From an uncultured Acetatifactor sp. (GTDB taxonomy: Bacteria; Bacillota; Clostridia; Lachnospirales; Lachnospiraceae), in assembly GCA_947625475.1 (NCBI GenBank), contig CANQOL010000008.1, positions 1 to 64,000 on the forward strand: DNA of 64,000 bases, given 5' to 3'. The notes under the pieces were generated by a model. It had not been told where the DNA came from, did not search any database, and worked only from the letters and a program-made list of their open reading frames with translations. Below, in pieces: positions 4,413 to 64,000 of the stretch (within the stretch, counting starts at the first letter, position 1; each line of letters starts with the position of its first letter). The translations under genes and the position numbers were made by a program.

Positions 4413-4464
4413 ATTATTGACAAACAATAATTCCGCGCTATAATGATTATTGTAAAACAATAAT
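4413..4464 (+). promoter_or_regulatory. Sigma-A promoter with two palindromic operators
   Basis: TTGACA (4417-4422) and TATAAT (4439-4444) are spaced by 16 bp. The palindrome ATTATTG-N5-CAATAAT occurs twice, at 4413-4431 over the -35 box and at 4446-4464 just after the -10 box, with centres 33 bp apart (about three helical turns). This is the layout of an operator pair for a dimeric repressor, most simply the XRE protein encoded in the same operon (5443-5670). Confidence 0.85.
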
Positions 4465-4482
4465 TTTCAAGAGGAAGGCTGC

Positions 4483-5430
4483 ATGATGAAAAAAATAACC
4501 TTACTTATTGCCTGCCTTGGCACAGGGATATTTACAGCTGCGCTGGCTGTCCTGACCAGGCATTTCCCGAATCTTTTTTCTTCGATAATGACGTTCCCCT
4601 TTGAGCAGATAGGCTGCGGACTTGGCGTCCTGTCAAAAACAGGATCCCTTGGAAATGGGGCCGCCGTGGCCGCCTGGATTGGAATATCTGCGATTCCGAT
4701 CATAATTGCCCTTCGATACAAGAGAAGCAAAGAGACCTTGTGGGAGCGAGTGTCATTATATGTTTTGTCCGCCGCCGTCCTCTTGGCGCTTTATGGCATG
4801 GTAAATCCGCAGCTCTTTCACGCTGTGCCCTTCGATAATGCTCTCGAATTTTTAAAGCTGATAAAGACGATTCTCGGCGCCGGTGTCTGGGCGGTTGTCG
4901 TCCTGTATCTAGCCCTGCGTCTCATTCGGCTGTTTCGGCAGGGAAATAAGGAGCAGCTTCTAAAGTATATGCAAAACATTCTGTACATCCTGTGCATCCT
5001 CTTTACAGGAGCAGCGGCCATTTCCATTATAAATGGGGGAATTGCACTTATGGACGCGGCACAGGCACCTGCGGATGCCGGCTTCGGAGTTTTTCATCTG
5101 ATTGCGGAGCTTGCCCCTTATGTATTTGATAATATCATAATCCTGCGTCTGACGGATCTGCTTGGCATCGCCAGAGATAAAAAACAGGAGGGGATTGCGG
5201 AATCAGCCGGGCGGGTGAGCCGTATTTGCTGCCTGGCACTGGGGATCACGACAGCACTGACCGCGGGTTCCAACCTGGTTCAGATTGCTCTGATGCGGCA
5301 CCTGTCAAATATTTCTGTCACGGTGAATATCCCTGTCATCAGTATCGCGTTTACGGTAATGGTCCTGCTGTTTTCACGGCTCCTGATCGAAAACAAGGTA
5401 CTCCATGATGACAACGATCTGTTCATATAA
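4483..5430 (+). CDS. Multi-pass membrane protein (DUF2975-like), paired with an XRE regulator
   Basis: A 315-residue integral membrane protein with about seven to eight hydrophobic segments (for example at 5-24, 61-77, 90-107, 126-144, 163-190, 250-270, 280-300). The C-terminal half, with a short loop before LLGIARDKKQEGI, recalls DUF2975 proteins, which regularly sit directly before a small YozG-like XRE regulator, as here. It is about twice the usual DUF2975 length, so the family call is tentative. First gene of an operon of three with the XRE regulator and a secreted or anchored protein, under the twin-operator promoter. Function unknown. Confidence 0.7.
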   Translation: MMKKITLLIACLGTGIFTAALAVLTRHFPNLFSSIMTFPFEQIGCGLGVLSKTGSLGNGAAVAAWIGISAIPIIIALRYKRSKETLWERVSLYVLSAAVLLALYGMVNPQLFHAVPFDNALEFLKLIKTILGAGVWAVVVLYLALRLIRLFRQGNKEQLLKYMQNILYILCILFTGAAAISIINGGIALMDAAQAPADAGFGVFHLIAELAPYVFDNIIILRLTDLLGIARDKKQEGIAESAGRVSRICCLALGITTALTAGSNLVQIALMRHLSNISVTVNIPVISIAFTVMVLLFSRLLIENKVLHDDNDLFI

Positions 5431-5442
5431 GCGGGGTGGCGT

Positions 5443-5670
5443 ATGGCGATTAAAGTTCATTTGGAAGAAATCCTCAAGGAACGCAATATGACTTCCAAGG
5501 AGTTATGCGGGCTGATTGGAATTACAGAAGCAAATCTTTCTATCCTTCGCAGCGGGAAGGCAAAGGGTGTCCGATTCGGCACAGTCAATAAAATATGCTA
5601 TTACCTGCAATGTGAGGTGGGGGATATTCTCAAATTCGATGGCAATCTGGAGGGAAATGATGAAAACTAA
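5443..5670 (+). CDS. XRE-family (YozG-like) transcriptional regulator
   Basis: A 75-residue Cro/CI-type helix-turn-helix protein: KERNMTSKELCGLIGITEANLSILRSGKAK is the HTH, followed by the conserved NKICYYLQCEVGDILKF end of the YozG-like family. It is short and single-domain, so it should bind DNA as a dimer. It probably represses the operon promoter through the two ATTATTG-N5-CAATAAT palindromes at 4413-4464. Its end overlaps the start of the next gene by 14 bases, implying translational coupling. Confidence 0.9.
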   Translation: MAIKVHLEEILKERNMTSKELCGLIGITEANLSILRSGKAKGVRFGTVNKICYYLQCEVGDILKFDGNLEGNDEN

Positions 5671-6628
5671 GAATATAATGATCACCGTCTGCTGCGTAAT
5701 CCTCTCTGCTTTTCTTCTTGGGGCAGCGGGCATCCTAAAAATGACAAATGAAACTCCGCAGGAGAGCTCTGGATCCGACCGCCTGATCGGCGTTTTGATC
5801 ACACGCGAGTATCTTGATTTGTTTGACGCCGACCGGTTCCTCAGTGATAATGTCAGCCGTCTCGCTGCCGGAGGAAAAGTCAGCGAATCGGAAAGTGCGA
5901 AATATCAGGGAAGACTTTATGCCAGCCCTGTCGAGACAGTTCATACCGACGAGGAAACAGGGGAAATTCTGAAAAGCATAGAATATGTTTTCAGCGGCGT
6001 TGACGGCATCCGCTTGTTCGCCCCATACATCCGGGATGAATCGGGCTCCTATCAGAGTGCGTATGTAGATGAAGGGATAACAGATGGCAAAATAAATTTC
6101 CAATCGACGGATGAGGGAGAAAATGTATCTCTGAAAGGGACCATTTTTGTCGCACCAGACAGCAATTCAGGCCAATTTTATTTTAATCCCGTCTACCAGA
6201 CAGCAGACGGCGAGGTTTATGCTGTCAGCGGTTCCGGAGTATTTGGGACCGATGAGGGCCCTGCGGGAGCCTCCTGGAGTACAAAAATCTCGGGGACCCA
6301 GGAAACAGCGTCTGGAGATACCATTACATCTTCCGGCACGGAGGTGGAGGTGACGGTCTGCTTTATGGATGAGCCGGCAAAGATCGCGCTTCTGCAGTTT
6401 AACGGTAAAAACGAGTTGCTGGACAGGACAGAGTATCGTCCCGGCATGCTGCCGGAACACATCGATGCCCTTGCGGATACTCAGTACATGATTATGGAAA
6501 CTTCCACCTCCGAGGGCCAGAACCGGACATTATTCCAAAGGGAGGACGATTTCCTATATGCTTTTTACTGCCGCAGTGACGGAATCTGTGTAAAACAGGA
6601 AAGCGGGATCGGTTGGAATGGAAGATAA
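5657..6628 (+). CDS. Secreted or membrane-anchored protein of unknown function
   Basis: A 323-residue protein. Residues 1-30 form a signal peptide or signal anchor (MMKTKNIMITVCCVILSAFLLGAAGIL). The rest is extracellular in character, acidic and beta-rich, without cysteine pairs or a catalytic motif I can recognise. Two ATG codons in a row (5657 and 5660) follow a GGAGGG site; either could be the start. The open frame runs back to 5516, but that part lies inside the XRE gene in another frame. Operon position links it to the membrane protein and XRE regulator upstream. Confidence 0.7.
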   Translation: MMKTKNIMITVCCVILSAFLLGAAGILKMTNETPQESSGSDRLIGVLITREYLDLFDADRFLSDNVSRLAAGGKVSESESAKYQGRLYASPVETVHTDEETGEILKSIEYVFSGVDGIRLFAPYIRDESGSYQSAYVDEGITDGKINFQSTDEGENVSLKGTIFVAPDSNSGQFYFNPVYQTADGEVYAVSGSGVFGTDEGPAGASWSTKISGTQETASGDTITSSGTEVEVTVCFMDEPAKIALLQFNGKNELLDRTEYRPGMLPEHIDALADTQYMIMETSTSEGQNRTLFQREDDFLYAFYCRSDGICVKQESGIGWNGR

Positions 6629-6807
6629 ATATTAAAGAATCGCTCTGCCAAAATGAACGAGCCACAGCTTTTCCTATATTCGTGTTGCTCATATTTTGAA
6701 AAGGTGTTATACTTCTCCTTGTTCAGAGAAGTTCATGCTTCTTGGCAGATCGGTTTTGCGGAGAAGTTTTGTACTATCATAGAATAATGAGTGGGGGTAA
6801 CAATTGT

Positions 6808-7521
6808 ATGAAAAGAGCAGCCATTCTGCTTGTCATTCTTATGGGCATGGCTGGGCTGTCAGCTTGTGCAGCCGATAACCTGAATATCTCTGACGCATCA
6901 GCCCCAGACAGACCGGGAAAAATGTATGAGGATGTCGCAGTTGAAGATTTCGGGCAGATTAAGATAAGCGGAAGTGCCTTGTCTGTTGTGATCCAGCGCA
7001 GCAAAAGCAATAATCTGGAATTTTATAACGGAGATTTGAATCCGACTCATACATATACTGTTCGCTGTGATAAGGATGGAGAAACTCTCAACATTGAACT
7101 TGTGATGGGGAATCCGGAAAATGACAATGATGTTCTCGGATCCCCTATGATTTGCATACCGCAAAAAGAGTTTGATAAAATTGAAATAGCCGGTGATTTC
7201 AGACAAATTTCTTTGGATGCTGTTCATTCAGACGTGCTGATTCATGCAAAAAACGATCCGCATGTAAATCTTAATTTAGAGGCTGACCATTTGAATCATA
7301 ATATTACATTGGACGGTTCAAAATCAGATATTTTCAGGAGCGTTTCGGTTTATTTTGATAGATTTCCTGACAATATAAAGATGGATCTAAACATAATCGA
7401 GGGCGGAATAATCAATGATCCGGATGACATACTGAAAAAGGAAGGCCTTGAAGCCGGTTCCGGGGAACTGGTTATAAGTGTAAATGATGCGCAAGAAGTA
7501 AACATTTATAGGCAAGAATAA
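6808..7521 (+). CDS. Lipoprotein with DUF4097-like beta-rich domain
   Basis: A 237-residue lipoprotein: signal peptide MKRAAILLVILMGMAGLSAC with the lipobox LSAC, so the mature protein starts at Cys20 and is anchored to the outer face of the membrane. The remainder is built from short alternating strands (FGQIKISGSALSVVIQ, FDKIEIAGDFRQISLDA), a pattern like the right-handed beta-helix of DUF4097/DUF2807 proteins. Start chosen at 6808 because GGGGGT lies about 10 bases upstream. Role unknown. A terminator follows closely. Confidence 0.75.
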   Translation: MKRAAILLVILMGMAGLSACAADNLNISDASAPDRPGKMYEDVAVEDFGQIKISGSALSVVIQRSKSNNLEFYNGDLNPTHTYTVRCDKDGETLNIELVMGNPENDNDVLGSPMICIPQKEFDKIEIAGDFRQISLDAVHSDVLIHAKNDPHVNLNLEADHLNHNITLDGSKSDIFRSVSVYFDRFPDNIKMDLNIIEGGIINDPDDILKKEGLEAGSGELVISVNDAQEVNIYRQE

Positions 7522-7815: not shown

Positions 7816-8574
7816 ATGCAGAAGCTATACGACAGAGCGGATATCTATGACCTGATTGAAAGTCCCGAGCGCTTTGAGGTGAACAAAAAGCATTGGGAGA
7901 TTGTTTTTGCGGGAAAGCATATTGATACCTTGCTCGATGTCAGCATCGGCACCGGAAACGTAACCTTACCCCTGGCCAGCCTGGGCGTGCGGCTCTTTGG
8001 CTCTGACCTGAGCGAAGCGATGCTGGATCGGTGCGGCAAAAAGGCTGCGGCGGCAGGCGTCGATATGGATTTGAGACAGAGTGACTTCAGAGAGGTCGCG
8101 AAGGCTTGGCCGGGAAAGCAGTTTGACTGTGTGGCCAGTACCGGAAACAGTCTGGCCTATGTGCCCAATGCGGATGTTGCCAGGGCGCTTGCACAGATGG
8201 ATATGCTTGTCAAACCAAACGGTTACCTGTATTTTGACACGCGGAATTGGGATTATATTTTGCGCGGACGGCCACGGTTTTACCTCTATAACCCTATGCA
8301 CAAAGACGGTGTCAGGATTAACCTCATGCAAGTATGGGACTACAATACGGACGGGAGCATGACCTTCAACCTGCTCTACACATTCGAAAGGGAGGAACGC
8401 ATCTTTCAAAAGGAGCAATTTGAAGAGCATTATTTCCCGGTCTCCCGAAGGTTCCTCATGGACACCTTGTCTGCCTTAGGTTATCAGAAGATTGATATTC
8501 TTCCGTATCCCGCCATGATGGATGCCAGGGATCCGGAAACAATGCCTTGGTACGGTATCCTTGCGCAAAAATAG
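7816..8574 (+). CDS. Class I SAM-dependent methyltransferase
   Basis: A 252-residue Rossmann-fold methyltransferase. Motif I is LLDVSIGTGNVTLPLA (about 39-54), the acidic end of strand 2 is LFGSDLSEAML, and FDCVASTGNSLAYV is the motif IV region. MQKLYDRADIYDLIES at the N-terminus is usual for clostridial members annotated as glycine/sarcosine-like methyltransferases. It should use S-adenosylmethionine; the acceptor is unknown. The ATG at 7816 follows GGAGAC at good spacing and matches family length; an in-frame ATG at 7750 would add 22 residues. Base composition is between the AT-rich left flank and the GC-rich genes that follow. Confidence 0.85.
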   Translation: MQKLYDRADIYDLIESPERFEVNKKHWEIVFAGKHIDTLLDVSIGTGNVTLPLASLGVRLFGSDLSEAMLDRCGKKAAAAGVDMDLRQSDFREVAKAWPGKQFDCVASTGNSLAYVPNADVARALAQMDMLVKPNGYLYFDTRNWDYILRGRPRFYLYNPMHKDGVRINLMQVWDYNTDGSMTFNLLYTFEREERIFQKEQFEEHYFPVSRRFLMDTLSALGYQKIDILPYPAMMDARDPETMPWYGILAQK

Positions 8575-49552: not shown

Positions 49553-49852
49553 GTGATGACGATCGAGAAGAGGAAGCAGGGAGGGGAGCTGGAAATCGCC
49601 CTGTCGGGGCGGCTGGATACTAACACGGCTCCCGGGCTGGAGGTGGAGCTGAGGCGCAGCATCAGCGGCGTTTCCACCCTTGTGCTGGATCTGGCCCAGC
49701 TGGAATATATTTCCTCCGCCGGGCTCAGAGTTCTGCTGGCGGCCCAGAAGGTGATGAACAAGCAGGGGACAATGATCGTCCGAAATGCCTGCAAAGATGT
49801 GATGGAGATTTTTGATATCACCGGGTTCTCGGATTTTTTGACCATAGAGTAG
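49553..49852 (+). CDS. STAS-domain anti-sigma factor antagonist-like protein
   Basis: A 99-residue STAS protein: LEIALSGRLDTNTAPGLEVEL, then STLVLDLAQLEYISSAGLRVLL, whose ISSAG carries the serine phosphorylated in SpoIIAA/RsbV-type proteins. No matching anti-sigma kinase is next to it. It lies 26 bases after aspartate kinase and 34 before the peptide-export genes. As the export locus encodes its own sigma factor, a regulatory role there is plausible. AAAGGAGG precedes the ATG. Confidence 0.88.
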   Translation: MMTIEKRKQGGELEIALSGRLDTNTAPGLEVELRRSISGVSTLVLDLAQLEYISSAGLRVLLAAQKVMNKQGTMIVRNACKDVMEIFDITGFSDFLTIE

Positions 49853-49886: not shown

Positions 49887-50360
49887 ATGGGAGAGACAAT
49901 TTTTCGGGAAAAGAGCATGGAGAGGGTATCCTCGCCGGAACAGCTCAACGACTACATACGGGTGACGAATCCGGGAGTCTGGATCACGCTGGCGGCAGCC
50001 ATTGTGCTGCTGGCCGGATTCCTGATCTGGGGAGCCGCGGGCACGCTGGAGACCGGGGTGGATACGGTGGCTGTCTCGGACTCAGGGGGAGCTGTGTGCT
50101 ATGTCCGGGAGGCGGATATCTCCCGGATTGCCGAGGGGAGCACGGTGCGGATCGACGGCGGAGAGTACACGGTGGCGTCGGTTTCCCGGGAGCCCGCGGC
50201 GGTGGACGCCGGTTTCTCCGATTATGTGCTGCATGTGGGCGGGCTCACCGCGGGAGAGTGGGTGTATGCGGTGACCTTAAGCGGAGCGCTCCCGGAGGGG
50301 GTCTATGAGGCGTATGTGGTGACGGACAGCGTCTCCCCCATCACGTTCCTTTTGAATTGA
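49887..50360 (+). CDS. Short membrane-fusion (HlyD-like) protein of NHLP-type export
   Basis: A 157-residue protein with one membrane helix (about 31-52, VWITLAAAIVLLAGFLIWGA) and a short beta-rich outer part (TVAVSDSGGAVCYVREADIS, GSTVRIDGGEYTVASV). It resembles the lipoyl/beta-barrel part of NHLP-system secretion proteins but lacks the long coiled-coil hairpin needed to reach an outer channel, in keeping with a single-membrane cell. The next gene, the C39-peptidase exporter, begins nine bases after its stop codon. GGCAGGAGG precedes the ATG. Confidence 0.78.
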   Translation: MGETIFREKSMERVSSPEQLNDYIRVTNPGVWITLAAAIVLLAGFLIWGAAGTLETGVDTVAVSDSGGAVCYVREADISRIAEGSTVRIDGGEYTVASVSREPAAVDAGFSDYVLHVGGLTAGEWVYAVTLSGALPEGVYEAYVVTDSVSPITFLLN

Positions 50361-50368
50361 GGTGCGCT

Positions 50369-52558
50369 ATGGCGGAGATGAGACAGAAGAAACCGGTCCG
50401 GAGGGGCGTCGCCAGAGTCCCTGTTGTGATGCAGCTGGAGGCGCTGGAGTGCGGCGCCGCCTCCCTGACCATGATCCTGGCCTATTACGGCAAATGGGCG
50501 CCCCTGGAGCAGGTGCGGGCAGACTGCGGCGTATCCCGGGACGGCTCCAACGCGAAAAATATTCTGAGGGCGGCCCGCAGCTACGGCCTGGAGGCGAAGG
50601 GCTTCCGCTGTGAGCCCCAGTGGCTGAAAAAAAACGGGAGCTTCCCCTGCATCGTGCACTGGAACTTCAACCATTTTGTGGTCCTGTGCGGGTTCAAGGG
50701 GGAGAGGGCGGTGCTCAACGACCCGGCCAAGGGACATTACACCGTCTCCATGGAGCTGTTTGACCAGAGCTTTACGGGGATCTGCCTGATGTTCGAGCCC
50801 ACCGGGAATTTTAAGCCGGAGGGGAAGCAAAGGAGCGTCCTCTCCTTTGCCAGGAAACGCCTGGCCGGCGCCGGCTCGGCCGTCGCCTTTGTGGTTTTGA
50901 CCACGGTGGCCGCCTCCCTGATCGGCATCGTACAGCCGGCCTTTTCCCGATTCTTTTTGGACCGCCTGCTGACCGGGGAGAACCCGGAGTGGTTTTATCC
51001 CTTTCTGGGGGCCCTGGCCCTTTTGTCCGTGATACAGCTGGCTGTGGCCTTTGTGGAGGCCCGCGCTTCCCTTCGGATCGAGGGAAAGCTGGCCGCTCTG
51101 GGGGATACCACCTTTCTGTGGAAGGTGCTGCAGATGCCCATGGAGTTTTTCTCCCAGCGCATGGCGGGGGATATTCAGCAGCGCCAGACCACCAATGCCT
51201 CCATCGCCAGGGATCTGGTCAATACCTTTGCACCCCTGGTGCTGAACTCGGTGATGATGGTTTTCTATCTGGCGGTGATGATCCGCTACAGCTGGATCCT
51301 TACCCTTGTGGGCGTGGCCTCGATCCTGCTCAATCTGATTCTTTCCCGGATTATTTCCGCCAAGAGGGTCAATATCACCCGGGTGCAGATGCGGGACCAG
51401 GGCAAGCTGGCGGGAGCCACGGTGGCGGGCATCGAGATGATCGAGACCATCAAGGCCAGCGGCGCCGAGAACGGTTACTTTGAAAAGTGGGCGGGCTATC
51501 AGGCCAGTGTGAATACCCAGACGGTCCGGTATGAGAGGCTGAATGAGTATCTGGGCATCCTCCCCAATCTGATCTCCCGTCTGGCGGACATCACCGTGCT
51601 GGTGCTGGGAGTGAGCCTGGCGATGGAGGGCCGCTTTACGGCGGGTATGATCATGGCCTTTCAGGGCTTTCTGGCCGCCTTTGCCGAGCCCGCCATGACA
51701 CTGATCGAGGCCGGTCAGACCATTCAGGAGATGCGCACCCAGATGGAGCGGGTGGAGGATGTGATGGAATATCCCGCCGACCCGGGCCTTAGTGCCCAGG
51801 ACTGGGGCGGGGCAGCCCCGGATCAGGAGTATGACAAGCTCTCGGGGGCGGTGGAGATGAAAAATGTGACCTTCGGCTATTCCCGTCTGGATGAGCCGCT
51901 GATCGAGAACTTCAGCCTCTCCCTAAAGCCCGGCAGCCGGGTGGCCTTTGTGGGGAGCTCCGGCTGCGGAAAGTCCACCCTGTCCAAGCTGATCGCGGGA
52001 CTCTATCAGCCCTGGAGCGGGGAGATTTCCTTTGACGGCAGGCCCATAGGGGAGATTGACCGGAGCGTGTTTACAGGCTCTCTGGCTGTGGTCGACCAGG
52101 ACATCATCCTATTTGAGGACTCCATCCGGAACAATATCAAGATGTGGGACACCTCCATCGAGGATTTCGAGATGATCCTGGCCGCAAAGGACGCCCAGCT
52201 CCATGAGGATATCATGCAGAGGGTGGGCGGCTACGATTATGTGATCACAGAGGGGGGCAGGGATTTCTCGGGAGGACAGCGCCAGCGCATGGAGATTGCC
52301 CGGGTTCTGGCGCAGGAGCCCACCATTGTCATTTTGGACGAGGCCACCAGCGCTCTGGACGCCAAGACGGAGTATGACGTGGTACGGTCCATCAAGGACC
52401 GGGGGATCACCTGTATTGTTGTGGCCCATCGGCTCTCCACCATCCGGGACTGTGACGAGATCATCGTCTTAGATCACGGCAAGGTGGTGGGGCGCGGCAC
52501 CCATGAGGAACTGTATGCCAGGGGGGGCTTTTATACACAGCTGGTTTCCAACGAATAA
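50369..52558 (+). CDS. Peptidase-containing ABC exporter (C39, NHLP-type)
   Basis: A 729-residue bacteriocin-type exporter. The C39 cysteine peptidase (about 15-140) has Cys28 in QLEALECGAASLTMILAYYG, His102 in NFNHFVVLCGF and Asp118 in LNDPAKG, so the triad is complete. Six membrane helices follow (about 160-450), then the ATPase (about 490-729): FVGSSGCGKSTLSKLIAGLY, FSGGQRQRMEIARVL, VILDEATSALDAKTE. It should cleave leaders after a double glycine and export the core. Its likely substrates, three GG-leader peptides, are encoded 3 kb downstream. ATG at 50369 follows GAGGTG. Confidence 0.95.
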   Translation: MAEMRQKKPVRRGVARVPVVMQLEALECGAASLTMILAYYGKWAPLEQVRADCGVSRDGSNAKNILRAARSYGLEAKGFRCEPQWLKKNGSFPCIVHWNFNHFVVLCGFKGERAVLNDPAKGHYTVSMELFDQSFTGICLMFEPTGNFKPEGKQRSVLSFARKRLAGAGSAVAFVVLTTVAASLIGIVQPAFSRFFLDRLLTGENPEWFYPFLGALALLSVIQLAVAFVEARASLRIEGKLAALGDTTFLWKVLQMPMEFFSQRMAGDIQQRQTTNASIARDLVNTFAPLVLNSVMMVFYLAVMIRYSWILTLVGVASILLNLILSRIISAKRVNITRVQMRDQGKLAGATVAGIEMIETIKASGAENGYFEKWAGYQASVNTQTVRYERLNEYLGILPNLISRLADITVLVLGVSLAMEGRFTAGMIMAFQGFLAAFAEPAMTLIEAGQTIQEMRTQMERVEDVMEYPADPGLSAQDWGGAAPDQEYDKLSGAVEMKNVTFGYSRLDEPLIENFSLSLKPGSRVAFVGSSGCGKSTLSKLIAGLYQPWSGEISFDGRPIGEIDRSVFTGSLAVVDQDIILFEDSIRNNIKMWDTSIEDFEMILAAKDAQLHEDIMQRVGGYDYVITEGGRDFSGGQRQRMEIARVLAQEPTIVILDEATSALDAKTEYDVVRSIKDRGITCIVVAHRLSTIRDCDEIIVLDHGKVVGRGTHEELYARGGFYTQLVSNE

Positions 52559-52569
52559 GGAGATAGGGC

Positions 52570-54780
52570 ATGGGTTGGTTTGACGAACAGATCAGGCAGC
52601 GCAAGGAGCAGGACCAGAGCGTCTTTGAGGAGGCGTTTCTGGGGATTTCGGACGCTGTCACGGGATCCAGAATTTCAGTCGCCTTCGCGGACAGCCAGAG
52701 CCATATGCAGGACGCCCTGGACGAGATTCTTTCCTATTATCATATCAAGACCCGGGACATTCCCGAGACAGTCAAGGACAGGAACGAGCAGCTGGAGTAC
52801 CTTATGCGGCCCTACGGCATCATGCGCCGGGATGTTTTCCTGGAGAAGGGCTGGCACCGGGATGCCATCGGCCCCATGCTGGGGGTGAGAAAATCCGACG
52901 GCTCCGCCGTGGCGCTCATCCCTACCGGCCTGTCCGGCTATTCCTTTTGGGACGCACAGACCGGCAGACGGGTAAAGATCACCGGAAAAAACGGGGATCT
53001 CTTTGAGAGGGAGGCCATCGCCTTCTACAAGCCTCTGCCTCTGAAGCAGATCGGGGCCGGAGCACTGCTCCGGTACATTGCCGGGATCCTTTCCGCCGCC
53101 GACTATCTGCTGGCGGCCGGCGCGGCCCTGGCCGTGGCCCTGGTGGGCCTGCTGGCGCCAAAGCTGAACCAGGTGCTCTTGGGACCGGTTCTGGAGAGGG
53201 GAGAGAGGGGGCTTTTGTTGTCCACCGGGTTTTTCCTGGTGTGCATGACGGTATCCTCTCTGCTGTTTGACGCGGTGAAGGCCCTGATCATGGCCCGGAT
53301 CCGGACAAAGATAAGCATCACGGTGCAGGCCGCCGCGATGGCGCGGGTGCTCTCGTTCCCGGCCTCCTTTTTCAAGCAGTACAGCTCCGGGGAGCTCTCC
53401 GCCCGAATTCAGTACCTGAACAGCCTCTGCTCCCTGCTGGTGGAGGTGGTCCTCTCCAGCGGACTGACCGCCCTGTTCTCCCTTTTGTATGTCACGCAGA
53501 TTTTTGCCTTTGCCCCTGCCCTGGCGGTTCCGGCCCTGGCGGTCCTTCTGGCGACGGCGCTGTTTAGTGTGATCTGTGCCCTGGTGCAGATGCGGGTGTC
53601 CGAGAAGGAACTGTCCCTGGAGGCGAAGACGGAGGGCATGAGCTATGCCCTGATCGCGGGCATCCAGAAGATCAAGCTCTCCGGCTCCGAAAAGAGGGCC
53701 TTTGCCCGCTGGGGAAAGCTGTACGCCAAAAAGGCGAAGATCACCTATCACCCGCCCGGCATTCTCCGGTATCACAAGGCGTTTACCGCGCTGATCACCC
53801 TGACGGGGACCTTTGTCCTGTACGCGGCGGCGGTGGCAAATCAGGTGTCCGTGGCGGATTACTATGCCTTCCACGGGGCCTACAGCACGGTCAGCGGGGC
53901 TTTCCTGTCCCTGGCCGGCATGGCTCTGATCGCGGCCCATATCCGGCCGATCCTGGATATGGCAAAGCCTATTTTGGAGACCCTGCCGGAGGTGTCCGAG
54001 GGCAAGCAGGTGGTCACCCGGCTCTCCGGGGATATCGAGCTGAACAATGTGTCCTTCCGCTATCAGGAAAATATGCCCAATGTGGTGGATGATCTGTCCC
54101 TGAAGATCCGGCCCGGCCAGTATGTGGCCATTGTGGGGGCCACGGGCTGCGGCAAGTCCACGCTCATGCGGCTGATGCTGGGGTTTGAGACGCCCCAGAA
54201 GGGGGCGGTCTATTATGACGGCAAGGATCTGGCCGGCCTGGATTTAAAATCCCTGCGCCGCAGGATCGGCACCGTCATCCAGGACGGAAAGCTCTTTCAG
54301 GGGGATATTTTTTCCAATATCACGGTCTCTGCCCCCTGGCTCACCCTGGAGGACGCCTGGGAGGCGGCCCGGATGGCGGGCATGGATGAGGATATCCGGC
54401 GGATGCCTATGGGAATGAACACCGTGATCTCCGAGGGAGGCGGAGGCATATCCGGGGGACAGCGCCAGCGGCTGATGATCGCCAGAGCCGTGGCGCCCAA
54501 GCCAAAGATTTTGATGTTTGACGAGGCCACCAGCGCCCTGGACAATCTCACCCAGAGGACAGTTTCCCAGTCCTTAGACGGGCTCAAATGCACCCGGGTG
54601 GTCATCGCCCACCGGCTTTCCACCATCCGTCAGTGCGACAGGATCCTTTACCTGGAGAAGGGGAAGATTGTGGAGGACGGCACCTACGAGGAACTGATTG
54701 CCAAAAAGGGGAAGTTTGCCGATCTGGTGGCCAGGCAGCGCCTGGATGGGGAGAGCGGCGCCGGCCAGGCGGCGGGCTGA
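52570..54780 (+). CDS. NHLP-type ABC exporter, permease/ATPase without peptidase
   Basis: A 736-residue partner exporter. The first 150 residues form a non-catalytic N-terminal domain (no C39 Cys motif; YHIKTRDIPETVKDRNEQLEYLMRPYGIMRRDV), followed by six membrane helices (about 170-430) and an ATPase (about 480-720) with VGATGCGKSTLMRLML, ISGGQRQRLMIARAV and LMFDEATSALDNLTQ. NHLP loci encode such a pair, one with and one without peptidase, which may work as a heterodimer. Eleven bases after the first exporter; AAGGAGA precedes the ATG. Confidence 0.93.
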   Translation: MGWFDEQIRQRKEQDQSVFEEAFLGISDAVTGSRISVAFADSQSHMQDALDEILSYYHIKTRDIPETVKDRNEQLEYLMRPYGIMRRDVFLEKGWHRDAIGPMLGVRKSDGSAVALIPTGLSGYSFWDAQTGRRVKITGKNGDLFEREAIAFYKPLPLKQIGAGALLRYIAGILSAADYLLAAGAALAVALVGLLAPKLNQVLLGPVLERGERGLLLSTGFFLVCMTVSSLLFDAVKALIMARIRTKISITVQAAAMARVLSFPASFFKQYSSGELSARIQYLNSLCSLLVEVVLSSGLTALFSLLYVTQIFAFAPALAVPALAVLLATALFSVICALVQMRVSEKELSLEAKTEGMSYALIAGIQKIKLSGSEKRAFARWGKLYAKKAKITYHPPGILRYHKAFTALITLTGTFVLYAAAVANQVSVADYYAFHGAYSTVSGAFLSLAGMALIAAHIRPILDMAKPILETLPEVSEGKQVVTRLSGDIELNNVSFRYQENMPNVVDDLSLKIRPGQYVAIVGATGCGKSTLMRLMLGFETPQKGAVYYDGKDLAGLDLKSLRRRIGTVIQDGKLFQGDIFSNITVSAPWLTLEDAWEAARMAGMDEDIRRMPMGMNTVISEGGGGISGGQRQRLMIARAVAPKPKILMFDEATSALDNLTQRTVSQSLDGLKCTRVVIAHRLSTIRQCDRILYLEKGKIVEDGTYEELIAKKGKFADLVARQRLDGESGAGQAAG

Positions 54781-54927
54781 GGAAAAGGCCGCCGCTTGAA
54801 ATTTGGAGGGGGAGCCTAACAAAACCTTGGGTTTTGCGTAACAAGAGATAGAAAGCGGCAAAGGAGCGGGAGGCCCCGGGGGCGGGGGCCGGCCCGCAAA
54901 ATCGGAGGAAGGGAGGCGGAGACCTGC

Positions 54928-55125
54928 ATGGAGAGAGCGGAGCGTGTGCTGCGCACGCTGTTTGATTTTCAGCGCTTCGCGGGAGATGCCCGGCTGGAGA
55001 GGGTGATTTGTTCTGCCGGGGGGACGGACGGATGCATACCGCTGGAGGACAGTGAGCTGGAGGTAAATGCCGCCGGGGACGCGGACGACTGGCGGGCCAG
55101 GACGGGAGGAAAAAAGGAGCCATGA
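54928..55125 (+). CDS. Small protein of the export locus, leader-like C-terminus
   Basis: A 65-residue protein starting MERAERVLRTLFDFQRFAGD. LEDSELEVNAAG near its end resembles a double-glycine leader end (EL..AAG), like the ELAGAAGG of the three precursor peptides, but with a single G. GGAGGCGGAG lies before the ATG, and the stop codon overlaps the ATG of the sigma factor (ATGA). It may be a regulator, chaperone or unusual precursor. The 147-base gap before it holds no other gene. Confidence 0.65.
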   Translation: MERAERVLRTLFDFQRFAGDARLERVICSAGGTDGCIPLEDSELEVNAAGDADDWRARTGGKKEP

Positions 55126-55637
55126 GCAAAGCTGTCACTCCCGAGGAACTTTATGAAAATTACAGGGGAAAGGTGGAGCAGTATGTGGGCTCCCGGGTGT
55201 GGAACGAGAGCGACCGGGCGGATGTGGTCCATCAGATCTTCCTGAACGCCATCGCCGCCCTGGAGACCTTTGACCCCTCCCGCAGCAGGGTCGGGACCTG
55301 GCTGTACGCCATCACCCGGAACGCGGTGACGGATTATTACCGCAGACAGGCGAAGGATCCCATTCCCACGGAGTGGGAGGAGCTCTCCCTTTTGACCCGG
55401 ACAGAGGAAAAGGCGCTGACCCGGGAGAATCTGGAGGCCCTGGCGGCGGCCCTGGAGGAACTGCCGGAGCGGGAGCGCAGGATCGTGGTCTTTCGGTTTT
55501 ACCACGGCCTCTCCGCCCAGGAGACAGCCCGCAGGGTGGGAGTGAGCTACGCCAATGCCCGCTTCCTGCAGCACAGCGCCCTGAAAAAGCTGAGGCGCGC
55601 CCTGGAGAAAACAGGGCTGTTTGAAGAGTATCAATAG
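55122..55637 (+). CDS. Sigma-70-family (ECF-like) sigma factor of the peptide-export locus
   Basis: A 171-residue sigma factor. Region 2: YRGKVEQYVGSRVWNESDRADVVHQIFLNAI, then RVGTWLYAITRNAVTDYYRRQ (region 2.4). Region 4: LEELPERERRIVVFRFYHGLSAQETARRVGVSYANARFLQHSALKKL. Translationally coupled to the small protein before it. Because it lies between exporters and precursor peptides, it probably directs transcription of this locus. No anti-sigma gene adjoins; the STAS protein at the front of the operon is the only related regulator. Confidence 0.9.
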   Translation: MSKAVTPEELYENYRGKVEQYVGSRVWNESDRADVVHQIFLNAIAALETFDPSRSRVGTWLYAITRNAVTDYYRRQAKDPIPTEWEELSLLTRTEEKALTRENLEALAAALEELPERERRIVVFRFYHGLSAQETARRVGVSYANARFLQHSALKKLRRALEKTGLFEEYQ

Positions 55638-55692: not shown

Positions 55693-55869
55693 GTGAAAAA
55701 AGAAGAGAAAACGAAGGCAGAGCAGGACATGAAGGAGCTGACGGAGGATGAGCTGGCCGGGGCGGCCGGAGGAAGGGACGTATGTGATCATCTGGGGATT
55801 TCGAAAGAAAAGAGGCAGGAGCTCATTCAAGAAATCTTTGGGAGCGGCAGCGGGACGGACGCAATGTAA
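55693..55869 (+). CDS. Double-glycine-leader precursor peptide 1 (58 aa)
   Basis: A 58-residue peptide starting at GTG, with AAAGGAG eight bases upstream. The 27-residue leader reads MKKEEKTKAEQDMKELTEDE then LAGAAGG, ending in the GG expected for C39 cleavage. The predicted core is 31 residues, starts RDVCDHLGISKEKRQEL, ends SGSGTDAM and contains one Cys. The leader is nearly identical to that of peptides 2 and 3, while the core is unrelated. No modification enzyme is nearby. Confidence 0.88.
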   Translation: MKKEEKTKAEQDMKELTEDELAGAAGGRDVCDHLGISKEKRQELIQEIFGSGSGTDAM

Positions 55870-55930
55870 GATAAGAAGGGCAGACAGCCAGGATGATCTG
55901 GAGAGATAAAAAGAGAAAGGAGACTGTGGT

Positions 55931-56110
55931 ATGAAAAAGGAAGAGAAAACGAAGGCAGAACAGGACATGAAGGAGCTGACGGAGGAGGAACTGGCCGGAG
56001 CGGCGGGAGGGGGGAGAAAGAGCTATGTAGACCCCAGAAAACAGACGGAAGAAGAACGGTTGGAAGACTATAAAAAAAGTGAAGCTTTAACGAAGGCGGG
56101 ATGGACGTAA
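55931..56110 (+). CDS. Double-glycine-leader precursor peptide 2 (59 aa)
   Basis: A 59-residue peptide with the same leader (one Asp-to-Glu change, ELTEEELAGAAGG) and the same AAAGGAGACTG site at eight-base spacing. The predicted core is 32 residues, highly charged, without Cys: GRKSYVDPRKQTEEERLEDY, ending in KAGWT. The C-terminal Trp-Thr is shared with peptide 3. It starts 238 bases after peptide 1, in a tandem-duplicated block. Confidence 0.9.
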   Translation: MKKEEKTKAEQDMKELTEEELAGAAGGGRKSYVDPRKQTEEERLEDYKKSEALTKAGWT

Positions 56111-56170
56111 TATAGGAAGGCGGACAGCCCGGATGACCCGGAGGGATAAAAAGAGAAAGGAGACTGTGAC

Positions 56171-56338
56171 ATGAAAAAGGAAGAGAAAACGAAGGCAGAA
56201 CAGGACATGAAGGAGCTGACAGAGGATGAACTGGCCGGGGCAGCAGGAGGGAGCGGGACGGGACGCGTGAAATTTCTGCCACCCGACGAGATGGAAGAGC
56301 TGGATGAACACACTGTACGCGGCGGGGTATGGACGTAA
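56171..56338 (+). CDS. Double-glycine-leader precursor peptide 3 (55 aa)
   Basis: A 55-residue peptide, last of the three, beginning 240 bases after peptide 2. Leader identical in protein sequence to peptide 1 (ending ELAGAAGG). The predicted 28-residue core is SGTGRVKFLPPDEMEELDEH, ending in GGVWT. No Cys. The stop-codon region tggacgtaatata is the same as that of peptide 2. A terminator follows 25 bases later, closing the operon. Confidence 0.9.
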   Translation: MKKEEKTKAEQDMKELTEDELAGAAGGSGTGRVKFLPPDEMEELDEHTVRGGVWT

Positions 56339-56362: not shown

Positions 56363-56392
56363 CGGGCGCGGGGCAAATGCTCCGCGCCCGCT
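56363..56392 (+). terminator. Terminator of the peptide-export operon
   Basis: Stem cgggcgcgg / ccgcgcccg with a ten-base loop, then cttt. The sequence turns AT-rich after it. The gap 56339-57014 contains this hairpin, the consensus promoter at 56505 and the candidate RNA gene; no coding region. Confidence 0.8.
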
Positions 56393-56504
56393 TTGTGTGT
56401 GCGGACAAATTTACAGAAAATAGTGGAATAATTGTCGAGAATTGTAAAAAATGGAAACATGATGTAAAAGATTGAAAAATTTATTGAAAATATTTAAAAA
56501 TGTG

Positions 56505-56533
56505 TTGACAACTGGTGGCGGAATGTGTATAAT
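56505..56533 (+). promoter_or_regulatory. Perfect consensus sigma-A promoter
   Basis: TTGACA (56505-56510), exactly 17 bp, TATAAT (56528-56533), with AT-rich sequence upstream that could act as an UP element. It is the only promoter in the window with both boxes and spacing ideal. Confidence 0.93.
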
Positions 56534-56539
56534 AAAGTC

Positions 56540-56847
56540 ACAAACAAGAAAGAGAGAGACATCTTCCATAAAAGGTACGAAAGAATAGAGTACTAAGGAT
56601 GCGGGGCAGGAAGCAGGTTACACTGCCGGCGCAGGTGTCACGGACACAGAAGAAAAAATAGCGGAATACGAAAGATCGGATCGTAACGTTATGGTACTCC
56701 TGTACGAAAGAAAAGTGGACGGGGCACAAAGGATGAAATGGAAGAAACAACTGAATAGGGATGCAATCTGATGGGAAAGGAGGCAGCGGACCGTTGGACA
56801 GCATAGTTTGAGAGGGCGTTTCGATAGATGTCGAAGCGCCCTCTTTC
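56540..56847 (+). ncRNA. Candidate non-coding RNA, about 308 nt, unknown class
   Basis: The transcript from the perfect promoter would start near 56540 and end at a 14-bp terminator stem (56811-56824 / 56831-56844, then TTTCG). Between them no open frame with a ribosome binding site is evident, but there are several small hairpins (gtgtc-acg-gacac; gtac-tcct-gtac; the taacgtta palindrome). It does not show the hallmark sequences of RNase P, tmRNA, SRP RNA or a riboswitch known to me. A leader for the GH3 gene at 57015 is less likely because of the terminator. Confidence 0.6.
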
Positions 56848-57014
56848 GTCAGCTGTTTCTTAATTTTTTTGAAAATATGCCGGGAATATGGAAATTATAT
56901 GAGGGATTGTGTTAAGATAAGAGGGATATTTGTTTGGAAAGCCCTTGGGGCGTGATTGCGGACAGATAGGCCGGGAGGCGCTGTCCGGGCCGGCATACCC
57001 GGCGGGGAGAGAGA

Positions 57015-63233: not shown

Positions 63234-63362
63234 TTATGCCCTTTTTTGGGACAGATATTCCCCTTGCCGGATCGGCGGCCGAAGCGGACGCAGCGCAGAT
63301 CCGGCCGCTTGGGGAATGCAGGGTTGTCCCGGAAATGTTTCTCTAAAATCTGAAAGAATCCC

Positions 63363-63392
63363 TTGCAGTCAGTATCTCAGTTGTGATATAGT
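63363..63392 (+). promoter_or_regulatory. Probable promoter of the Rpn-type nuclease gene
   Basis: TTGCAG (63363-63368), 18 bp, TATAGT (63387-63392). It gives a leader of about 280 bases before the ATG at 63680, including the tandem repeat. The gap 63172-63679 otherwise holds no coding region I can support. Confidence 0.55.
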
Positions 63393-63545
63393 AAATTCAA
63401 GCAAAAGATTTCAATCTTCTCAGAGGCTCTGCCGTCAGCGGCGGAGAATCGAGATCTCACGATTCTGGGGATCTGTCCGGATCCCGTCTGTATTCGAACT
63501 CTTTGCTTATATCCCAAAACACATAAGCAGGGAGCTCGGCTTCCT

Positions 63546-63660
63546 GCAGACTACCGGGAGAGGCGGCGTATGTGTCTTTTCCGCAGACTGGCGGAGAGAT
63601 GGCGCCTGCGTCTTTCCCGCAGTCAACCGGAAGAGGTGCCGTGAGCGTCTTTCCGCAGAC
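63546..63660. repeat. Degenerate 36-37-bp tandem repeat, three copies
   Basis: Three units (about 63546-63582, 63583-63618, 63619-63654), each starting gcag(a/t)c and ending in a gtcttttcc / gtctttccc / gtctttcc run, lie in the leader of the nuclease gene and end 20 bases before its ATG. Confidence 0.75.
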
Positions 63661-63679
63661 CAAAGAAGGGCAGGAAGAA

Positions 63680-64000
63680 ATGGACAAGGCAGACAAGGTA
63701 CAAGGGACGCTGGAGACGCTGAGCAGTCTGCAGCTGACAGAGGACATGAAGGCGCTGGACGCCCAGAGCAAGAAACTTCTTCACAGCAGGGAGGTGCTGG
63801 CGATTATTCTCCAGGAGGTGGTGGAGGAATATCAGGGGTACAGCCGCCAGGAGATTATGGATTTTATCGAGATGGAGTCCTTAAGGGAAGGGCAGGAGGT
63901 GTCTCCTGACCGGGCCCGGGCCCAGATACAGGGAAGCGCCACGGAATTTACCCAGTTAAATGAGAGAGCCTCCCGTCTGGATGTGGCATTCCAGGCGTTG
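63680..64000 (+). CDS. N-terminal part of an Rpn-type PD-(D/E)XK nuclease (cut by window end)
   Basis: An open frame of 107 codons from ATG 63680 (after AGGAAGAA) to the edge. LQLTEDMKALDAQSKKLLHS, REVLAIILQEVVEEYQGYSR, QEIMDFIEMESL and NERASRLDVAFQAL are the N-terminal pattern of Rpn / PD-(D/E)XK transposase-family proteins in Lachnospiraceae. The catalytic DVE-type acidic motif would lie beyond the edge. The C-terminal remnant at 20029-20352 belongs to the same family. Rpn proteins promote RecA-independent recombination. Confidence 0.75.
   Translation, partial: MDKADKVQGTLETLSSLQLTEDMKALDAQSKKLLHSREVLAIILQEVVEEYQGYSRQEIMDFIEMESLREGQEVSPDRARAQIQGSATEFTQLNERASRLDVAFQAL

Follow-up and report, generated by a model that had tools for sequence, protein, structure and literature searches.

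The window studied here, a stretch of 64,000 nucleotides from an uncultured Acetatifactor sp., contains a run of genes in which two exporter subunits, a small protein of 65 residues (ORF65) and an ECF-type sigma factor are followed by three tandem genes for short peptides with a Gly-Gly (GG) leader. We consider it probable that this is an ECF-sigma-controlled export locus for unmodified GG-leader peptides, which would be cut and exported via an NHLM/PCAT transporter. A sequence-only reading of the same DNA had drawn attention to the peptide genes; it did not mention the exporter, the sigma factor or a promoter-like motif, which give the array the look of a functional export locus. Fixed-leader arrays with variable cores are already known (published in 2010), and what differs here is the short leader type and the putative control by sigma factor, motif and ORF65. 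As far as our literature search shows, little has been described about how such arrays are switched on, and in the open-licence literature, judged by titles and the beginnings of abstracts, we found no description of a sigma/ORF65/GG-peptide arrangement. The regulation of this locus is directly testable, since it provides a sigma factor together with a specific promoter-like sequence and a small protein as partner.

Export block and predicted cleavage of the peptides

The features of the locus are as follows.

49553–49852, + strand: STAS / anti-sigma-factor-antagonist-like protein, first gene of the export block (TIGR00377, 72 bits, cut-off 53; PF01740)
49887–50360, + strand: short HlyD-like protein, 157 aa (partial TIGR03794 match)
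50357–52558, + strand: ABC1, NHLM-type exporter with N-terminal C39 peptidase (TIGR03796, 934 bits, cut-off 853)
52570–54780, + strand: ABC2, second NHLM-type ABC exporter subunit, no C39 domain found (TIGR03797, 719 bits, cut-off 709; Pfam)
54817–54844, + strand: putative ECF-sigma promoter TAACAAAA-N12-CGTAWCAA (pattern match), preceding ORF65, sigma factor and peptides
54928–55125, + strand: ORF65, 65 residues, with FDFQRF motif and GG-leader-like end LEDSELEVNAAGD (alignments); overlaps the sigma start
55122–55637, + strand: ECF-type sigma factor (TIGR02937, 101 bits, cut-off 43; Sigma70 regions 2 and 4)
55693–55869, + strand: GG peptide 1, GTG start; leader 55693–55773, core RDVCDHLGISKEKRQELIQEIFGSGSGTDAM
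55931–56110, + strand: GG peptide 2; leader 55931–56011, core GRKSYVDPRKQTEEERLEDYKKSEALTKAGWT
56171–56338, + strand: GG peptide 3; leader 56171–56251, core SGTGRVKFLPPDEMEELDEHTVRGGVWT
56363–56390, + strand: terminator-like hairpin 3' of the last peptide gene (12 pairs, 11 of them G-C)

The operon order on the + strand is STAS, short HlyD-like protein, ABC1, ABC2, ORF65 and ECF sigma, and then the three peptides. ABC1 and ABC2 both score above the cut-offs of their exporter families, TIGR03796 and TIGR03797, as is characteristic of an NHLM/PCAT exporter. A full HlyD-type adaptor of family TIGR03794 was not found in the export block: residues 13–60 of the short HlyD-like protein match positions 1–48 of the 421 positions of this model, at 31 bits and far under the cut-off of 156. 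The same short protein has a counterpart in the related genome G012, with 69% identity in an alignment of 157 residues.

Residues 9–152 of ABC1, in its C39 domain, give a gap-free alignment at 244 bits with residues 4–147 of the crystallised peptidase LahT (6mpz). By the offset of this alignment, the LahT catalytic residues Cys27, His101 and Asp117 (PMC6363468) correspond to C32, H106 and D122 of ABC1, all of which are present. According to that paper, the last 13 leader residues suffice for LahT, positions -4, -7 and -12 are critical, very diverse cores are tolerated, and position -4 is usually Val, Leu or Ile, with Thr also functional. All three window leaders have L-12, E-8, L-7, A-4, G-2 and G-1. 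They share the GG, Leu-12 and Leu-7 of LahT substrates; Ala at -4 departs from the usual residues, which speaks against the assignment, and is not among the -4 changes reported in the relevant section (PMC6363468). Given the LahT-like C39 domain, its catalytic residues and the leader anchors, cleavage of peptides 1–3 after GG by ABC1 is expected. The domain would recognise the last 13 leader residues through Leu-12, Leu-7, the small residue at -4 and Gly-Gly, and the peptides would be exported unmodified as hydrophilic products of 28–32 residues.

The 5' flank of the export block encodes a DUF3829 protein, a homoserine dehydrogenase, a phosphoglycerate mutase and an amino-acid kinase with ACT domains, and the 3' flank of the peptides a glycoside hydrolase of family 3, an MFS protein, a beta-CASP protein, a thymidylate synthase and a dihydrofolate reductase. 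One of the nine flanking proteins tested together (63316–63906) gave no match.

Downstream of the peptide genes, a perfect TTGACA-17-TATAAT promoter (56505–56533) opens a stretch of about 300 nt (56500–56860) that ends in a hairpin seen by eye at about 56811–56847. DNA similar to parts of this stretch occurs in 49 of 138 genus genomes (own genome included), and an alignment of 18 relatives with the window shows conserved blocks. No Rfam match at gathering score was obtained in six relatives, and the window gave sub-threshold matches only. It is a candidate for an unnamed structured RNA.

Conserved leaders and diverging cores

The arrangement first read from the sequence was recovered in the window: three short ORFs of 58, 59 and 55 codons with start-to-start distances of 238 and 240 nt, AAAGGAGACTG upstream of each start, a single Cys in core 1, and Cys-free cores 2 and 3 that both have a Trp-Thr end. 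The claim of a common 27-residue leader likewise stands, with 26 of the 27 columns identical and D or E in the remaining one (consensus MKKEEKTKAEQDMKELTE[D/E]ELAGAAGG). All three frames are open and have good ribosome sites, and the intergenic spacers are 61 and 60 nt long. Peptides 1–3 pass no leader-family model cut-off. No further copies were found in the own genome (E up to 10), and the window peptides were confined to this one genome among the 138 genus genomes searched. Furthermore, the peptide DNA had no match among viral contigs, and known RNA families gave only two matches around the locus, both far under their gathering scores.

A repeat finder reported a 138-nt repeat family with three copies in the window, with 74% and 90% identity to its reference. 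The leader DNA is identical at 73, 73 and 76 of 81 nt in the three pairwise comparisons. The earlier claim of leaders conserved at the DNA level beside changed cores held for the leaders themselves, but the leader is not the only conserved block: the spacers preceding genes 2 and 3 are identical at 45 of 53 positions without gaps, and the stop-codon region of these two genes is also repeated (80% over 30 nt). The spacer upstream of gene 1 matches those of genes 2 and 3 at just 27/53 and 26/53 positions. Between the window copies, leader dN ranged from 0 to 0.016 and dS from 0.30 to 0.64, with dN/dS ≤0.055; for this reason the leaders look as if they are kept alike by purifying selection, and not just by a recent duplication.

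Within the window, the similarity between cores is not convincing, with no clear excess over shuffled sequence. The three core pairs gave p values of 0.42, 0.35 and 0.075 in local protein alignments, 0.21, 0.011 and 0.081 in global DNA alignments, and 0.089, 0.022 and 0.21 in local forward DNA alignments, where the low values of 0.011 and 0.022 both concern cores 1 and 3 and are uncorrected for 12 tests. Homology on the reverse strand was considered and rejected (p 0.083 to 0.47).

A protein database search with the three peptides returned ten proteins (P0001–P0010), of which P0002 and P0003 are identical to peptides 3 and 2, respectively, and P0001 differs from peptide 1 at the last residue. 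Their cores fall into three lineages, A (P0001, P0006), B (P0003, P0004, P0007, P0008, P0009) and C (P0002, P0005, P0010), each corresponding to one window gene. The single Cys of core 1 is not conserved, being missing in its nearest relative, P0006. Core identity is 17/33 in lineage A (one pair), 12/32 to 23/26 in lineage B (10 pairs) and 9/28 to 25/28 in lineage C (three pairs), while the leaders of these 14 same-lineage pairs are identical at 24 to 27 of 27 positions. The description of the cores as hypervariable and unrelated is half right: it fits the lack of convincing similarity within the window, but 'unrelated' is too strong given three lineages that match the window genes. Moreover, cores B and C may be distantly related, as the core of P0002 compared with those of P0007, P0008 and P0009 gave p values of 0.012, 0.008 and 0.004 (500 shuffles, uncorrected for 45 pairs).

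Over all 45 pairs of the ten peptides, the leaders have a mean identity of 0.94 and the cores one of 0.33; the comparison across strains is one of protein identity, and dN/dS was computed for the window leaders. These values agree with the proposal of duplication with a constrained leader and faster-changing cores; the rapid core diversification suggested at first reading may have taken place. A core as conserved as its leader, named beforehand as a sign against that proposal, occurs in the pair P0002/P0005 (core 25/28, leader 24/27), whereas the remaining 13 same-lineage pairs all have a core that is less conserved than the leader.

Decaying or inert duplicates, with no selected product and drifting cores, could account for cores that differ strongly between copies and for the absence of a homologue in the other 137 genus genomes searched. 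We regard such decay as highly improbable, since none of the three frames is interrupted and each has a good ribosome site, same-lineage database cores retain up to 25/28 residues, the exporter genes are intact, and the leader dN/dS is low.

Another possibility is that the peptides are class II (unmodified) bacteriocins that act alone or in combination. Class II bacteriocins and competence-type GG peptides (PCAT substrates) have a short GG leader and a C39 exporter, and the window peptides resemble them in both respects and in an apparently unmodified core. A GG leader with a C39 exporter is the usual bacteriocin arrangement, and the names of TIGR03796 and TIGR03797 refer to bacteriocin export. 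In addition, genome G473 (locus L054) has more hydrophobic cores at the same slot (GIIDTVKEWFGSLFGK, GRAVY 0.26; DIWDKLCEFFGGFF, GRAVY 0.42). The core of a class II bacteriocin, however, is cationic and amphiphilic or hydrophobic. In contrast, all ten window-type cores are hydrophilic (GRAVY -0.46 to -1.75), with a net charge of -3 to +2, and do not have this character. The spacers between the genes leave no room for immunity genes, and among + strand ORFs of at least 40 aa none falls between the peptide genes or begins within the 590 bases from the end of gene 3 to 56930; the search for immunity genes covered + strand ORFs of this size near the array, and shorter or unlinked genes are possible. 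No immunity or target gene was recognised near the array, nor was a receptor or histidine kinase seen beside the peptide genes, and an ECF sigma factor is present instead. We therefore think a bacteriocin set rather unlikely, and the toxin role suggested at first reading is not supported, given the hydrophilic cores and the lack of a recognised adjoining immunity gene. A signalling role, the other suggestion, is possible. In the export locus that we favour, the exported peptides would act extracellularly, as signals or receptor-directed effectors between close relatives more likely than as membrane-active bacteriocins.

Promoter-like motif and ORF65 at the sigma factor

The ECF sigma factor has sigma regions 2 and 4, and a conserved, specific motif, at which it may regulate itself, precedes the sigma operon. 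This motif was spotted by eye before ORF65 and before the peptide genes of relatives, and was tested afterwards; it was built from the sites in the window and in loci L001 and L031, and these three are hence not independent. In the 64 kb of the window it has one match at ≤3 mismatches to the 28-nt pattern (mean of shuffles 0.02), and allowing spacings of 11–13 added two weak sites with 3 mismatches elsewhere in the window. A trial with ten genomes found it in 3/3 carriers and 0/7 others. Among 397 family genomes the motif occurred in seven, namely all three with a known close sigma/ORF65 pair and 4 of the 394 others, where a close sigma factor without ORF65 could have escaped in the remainder, as sigma was searched in 299 family genomes and ORF65 in 397. 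Five sites together belong to G000 (the own genome), G012 and G473, and one each to four other genomes. A control with the reversed pattern gave two sites in total over the 397 genomes.

Locus L001 has three motif sites, each next upstream of a GG-peptide gene (4230, 8669, 15745), although the third lies about 570 bases ahead of its gene and its link is weak. L002 has one site, with 1 mismatch, upstream of its ORF65. In G012, the second site is followed by a gene whose product ends in a STAS domain, then by a radical SAM/SPASM gene and by three GG peptides whose cores are of the CxxC type; the first of these peptides scores above the Pfam Nif11 cut-off. This site is independent support for the motif and points to a putative second GG-peptide operon; the motif is thus a handle for finding further GG-peptide operons, with the one in G012 already found. 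The second site in the own genome (G000 C12:65519–65546; L104 5520–5547, - strand) lies about 40 nt upstream of the likely start of a gene that does not encode a GG peptide; its product has 804 residues and no Pfam match, and this site counts against our reading. Near more divergent sigma factors the motif did not turn up, as would be expected of a promoter that tracks the sigma type, but the predicted sigma–promoter link is thereby seen in one sigma clade only.

The sigma factor would be transcribed from the promoter at 54817 of its own operon and would thereby reinforce itself and the three peptide genes. Sigma and peptide genes would share one transcript, ending near 56363–56390. The hairpin at this position has a weak T run, and the region has 3 terminator-like sites against 2.8 expected.

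ORF65, which lies between the motif and the sigma gene, gave nothing in searches of NCBIfam and Pfam at E up to 0.1, and the tested members of its family match no Pfam or NCBIfam model either. The protein database contains 1843 relatives at E up to 0.001. No Pfam domain was found in the best 120 of these, and the ends of the same 120 read NAAG[D/E] in 109, a residue other than N followed by AAG[D/E] in eight, NAAG with another residue in one and NAAGG in two. An alignment search placed ORF65 at 12 positions in 11 of 397 family genomes and at 11 positions in 11 of 392 order genomes, with 19 distinct places. A sigma-like ORF is present in the same locus at 16 of these 19 places (in L059 at 30 bits only), a proportion biased upwards because some loci built the query and several were first obtained through the sigma factor; NHLM exporters above 250 bits are present at 12 of the 19. 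Fifteen of the 16 sigma-linked ORF65s end in AAG plus a residue other than G, and the one in L093 reads AAMGSG. A proper AGG occurs in G443 and G079, both without a sigma factor in the examined locus, as is G663, where ORF65 reads AAAGQ.

Proteins in L058 and L056 start with FDYQ[K/R]F as in ORF65 but have a real GG. On this comparison, ORF65 looks like a GG leader that has lost its former cutting site, where we infer the direction of change. The close members keep the spacing from Leu-7 to G-1. The idea that the exact C39 register is kept in all ORF65s was dropped, as L033, L035 and L059 have one extra residue. An AlphaFold model of ORF65 had a mean pLDDT of 59 and a pTM of 0.28, with a helix at residues 2–30 at low confidence.

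One speculative reading, which we hold to be doubtful, is that ORF65 is a retired GG leader turned regulator, coupling exporter load to sigma activity. With NAAG[D/E] in place of xAGG and the leader anchors kept, it might occupy the C39 site uncut, or be displaced by real cargo, and gut Clostridia would then have a sigma switch for secreted peptides that senses export. If true, the 1843 relatives of ORF65 would mark many such switches. ORF65 might instead jam the exporter, or be no more than another peptide, with cleavage after AG.

Small proteins of another type lie near other ECF sigma genes (L028 13463–13720, L057 7970–8164 and L038 8447, all on the - strand), with ADF near the start and a leader-like AAAG end. 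In L001 (1–15100), two NHLM exporter pairs have an ORF65–sigma pair between them, and an M16-type peptidase (4433–7471; PreP_C, Peptidase_M16) follows the first short GG-peptide gene.

Cargo in relatives and known systems

The sigma search returned three loci from a contig collection and hits in 11 of 299 family genomes. G012 (L031) is 80% identical to the window in ABC1, 73% in ABC2 and 62% in sigma. In G473 (L054), whose sigma factor is 61% identical, two peptides follow the sigma gene and both pass the Nif11 leader cut-off (TIGR03798). G012 has a single similar Nif11-like peptide, the frame of which is broken by nine consecutive G. In L001, sigma is followed by a short GG peptide. Five GG peptides with leaders of the Nif11-like type are found in L002, and the cores of four of these contain two CxxC pairs; two were tested, of which one exceeds the TIGR03798 cut-off and the other falls below it, and a third L002 peptide matched zinc-ribbon models below their cut-offs only. 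The one cargo peptide tested in L033 also passes TIGR03798. This comparison shows closely related sigma/ORF65/exporter sets with different predicted cargo families at the same slot across species, where the constancy of the machinery is that of L001, L031 and L054, the last showing only the ABC2 end. No exporter was found within the 16 kb examined of L002.

G353 (L029), which belongs to the same genus, carries five short-leader ORFs of the GG type downstream of ABC2, with CxxC pairs in three of them, and shows no sigma or ORF65 in the stretch examined. ABC1 matches of more than 600 bits were found in three others among 61 genus genomes.

Haft et al. 2010 (PMC2887384) described Nif11/NHLP systems with conserved leaders, hypervariable cores after GG, many precursors per genome and exporters of families TIGR03794, TIGR03796 and TIGR03797. 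The window locus resembles them in exporter families, conserved leader, variable core after GG and several precursors. It differs in its 27-residue leaders, which fall outside both leader models, and in the lack of a recognised modification enzyme nearby. It also differs in having an ECF sigma factor, ORF65 and a promoter-like motif; the terms 'sigma factor' and 'anti-sigma' are absent from the main text of that paper. PMC6363468 describes a LahA1–9/LahT cluster with nine precursors in Lachnospiraceae C6A11. The window shares with it a very similar C39 domain (244 bits over 144 residues), conserved GG leaders with the same anchor positions, and many cores behind conserved leaders. In contrast, LahA has Nif11-type leaders in a lanthipeptide operon, whereas the window has short leaders and nearly Cys-free cores.

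An alternative is that the peptides are precursors of RiPPs and that their modifying enzyme is encoded at another site, as in Nif11/NHLP systems, with which they share the exporter families (PMC2887384). Radical SAM proteins lie beside Nif11-like peptides in L030 and L033, relatives with related exporters, the second G012 motif site precedes a radical SAM/Nif11-type operon, and the own genome encodes one SPASM protein, located on another contig. Peptides 1 and 2 match a plantaricin C lantibiotic model at 13.3 and 15.4 bits (cut-off 29), and peptide 2 matches Pfam Mersacidin at 13.7 bits (cut-off 27.6), but these sub-cut-off matches rest on the leader and its GG. Against modification, cores 2 and 3 have no Cys and the Cys of core 1 is missing in its nearest relative, the genome has no LanC-like or YcaO protein, none of the flanking genes tested was recognised as encoding a modification enzyme, and the Nif11 (TIGR03798) and NHLP (TIGR03793) leader models gave no match at E up to 0.1. 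A lanthipeptide assignment fails on the lack of a LanC-type enzyme in the genome, the Cys-free cores 2 and 3 and the low lantibiotic scores. An unlinked enzyme could modify the cores; we judge RiPP precursors quite improbable and prefer the export of unmodified peptides.

Several further observations were made in the relatives. The run of nine G in L031 (about 8023–8031, - strand) could be a phase-variable tract or an assembly error; the G473 counterpart (L054 1813–2040) is intact. Tandem GG peptides, most with paired core CxxC and resembling miniature zinc ribbons, occur at L002 8541–10400, L029 5700–7691 and L105 6446–7498, and zinc-ribbon models matched peptides of this type below the cut-off only. 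A radical SAM protein adjoins the tandem peptides in L105. Finally, a GG-leader ORF in L029 (7287–7601, - strand) has a Cro/C1-type HTH as its core (HTH_26, 39.9 bits, cut-off 22), and a DNA-binding core of this kind would be an odd cargo for an exporter.
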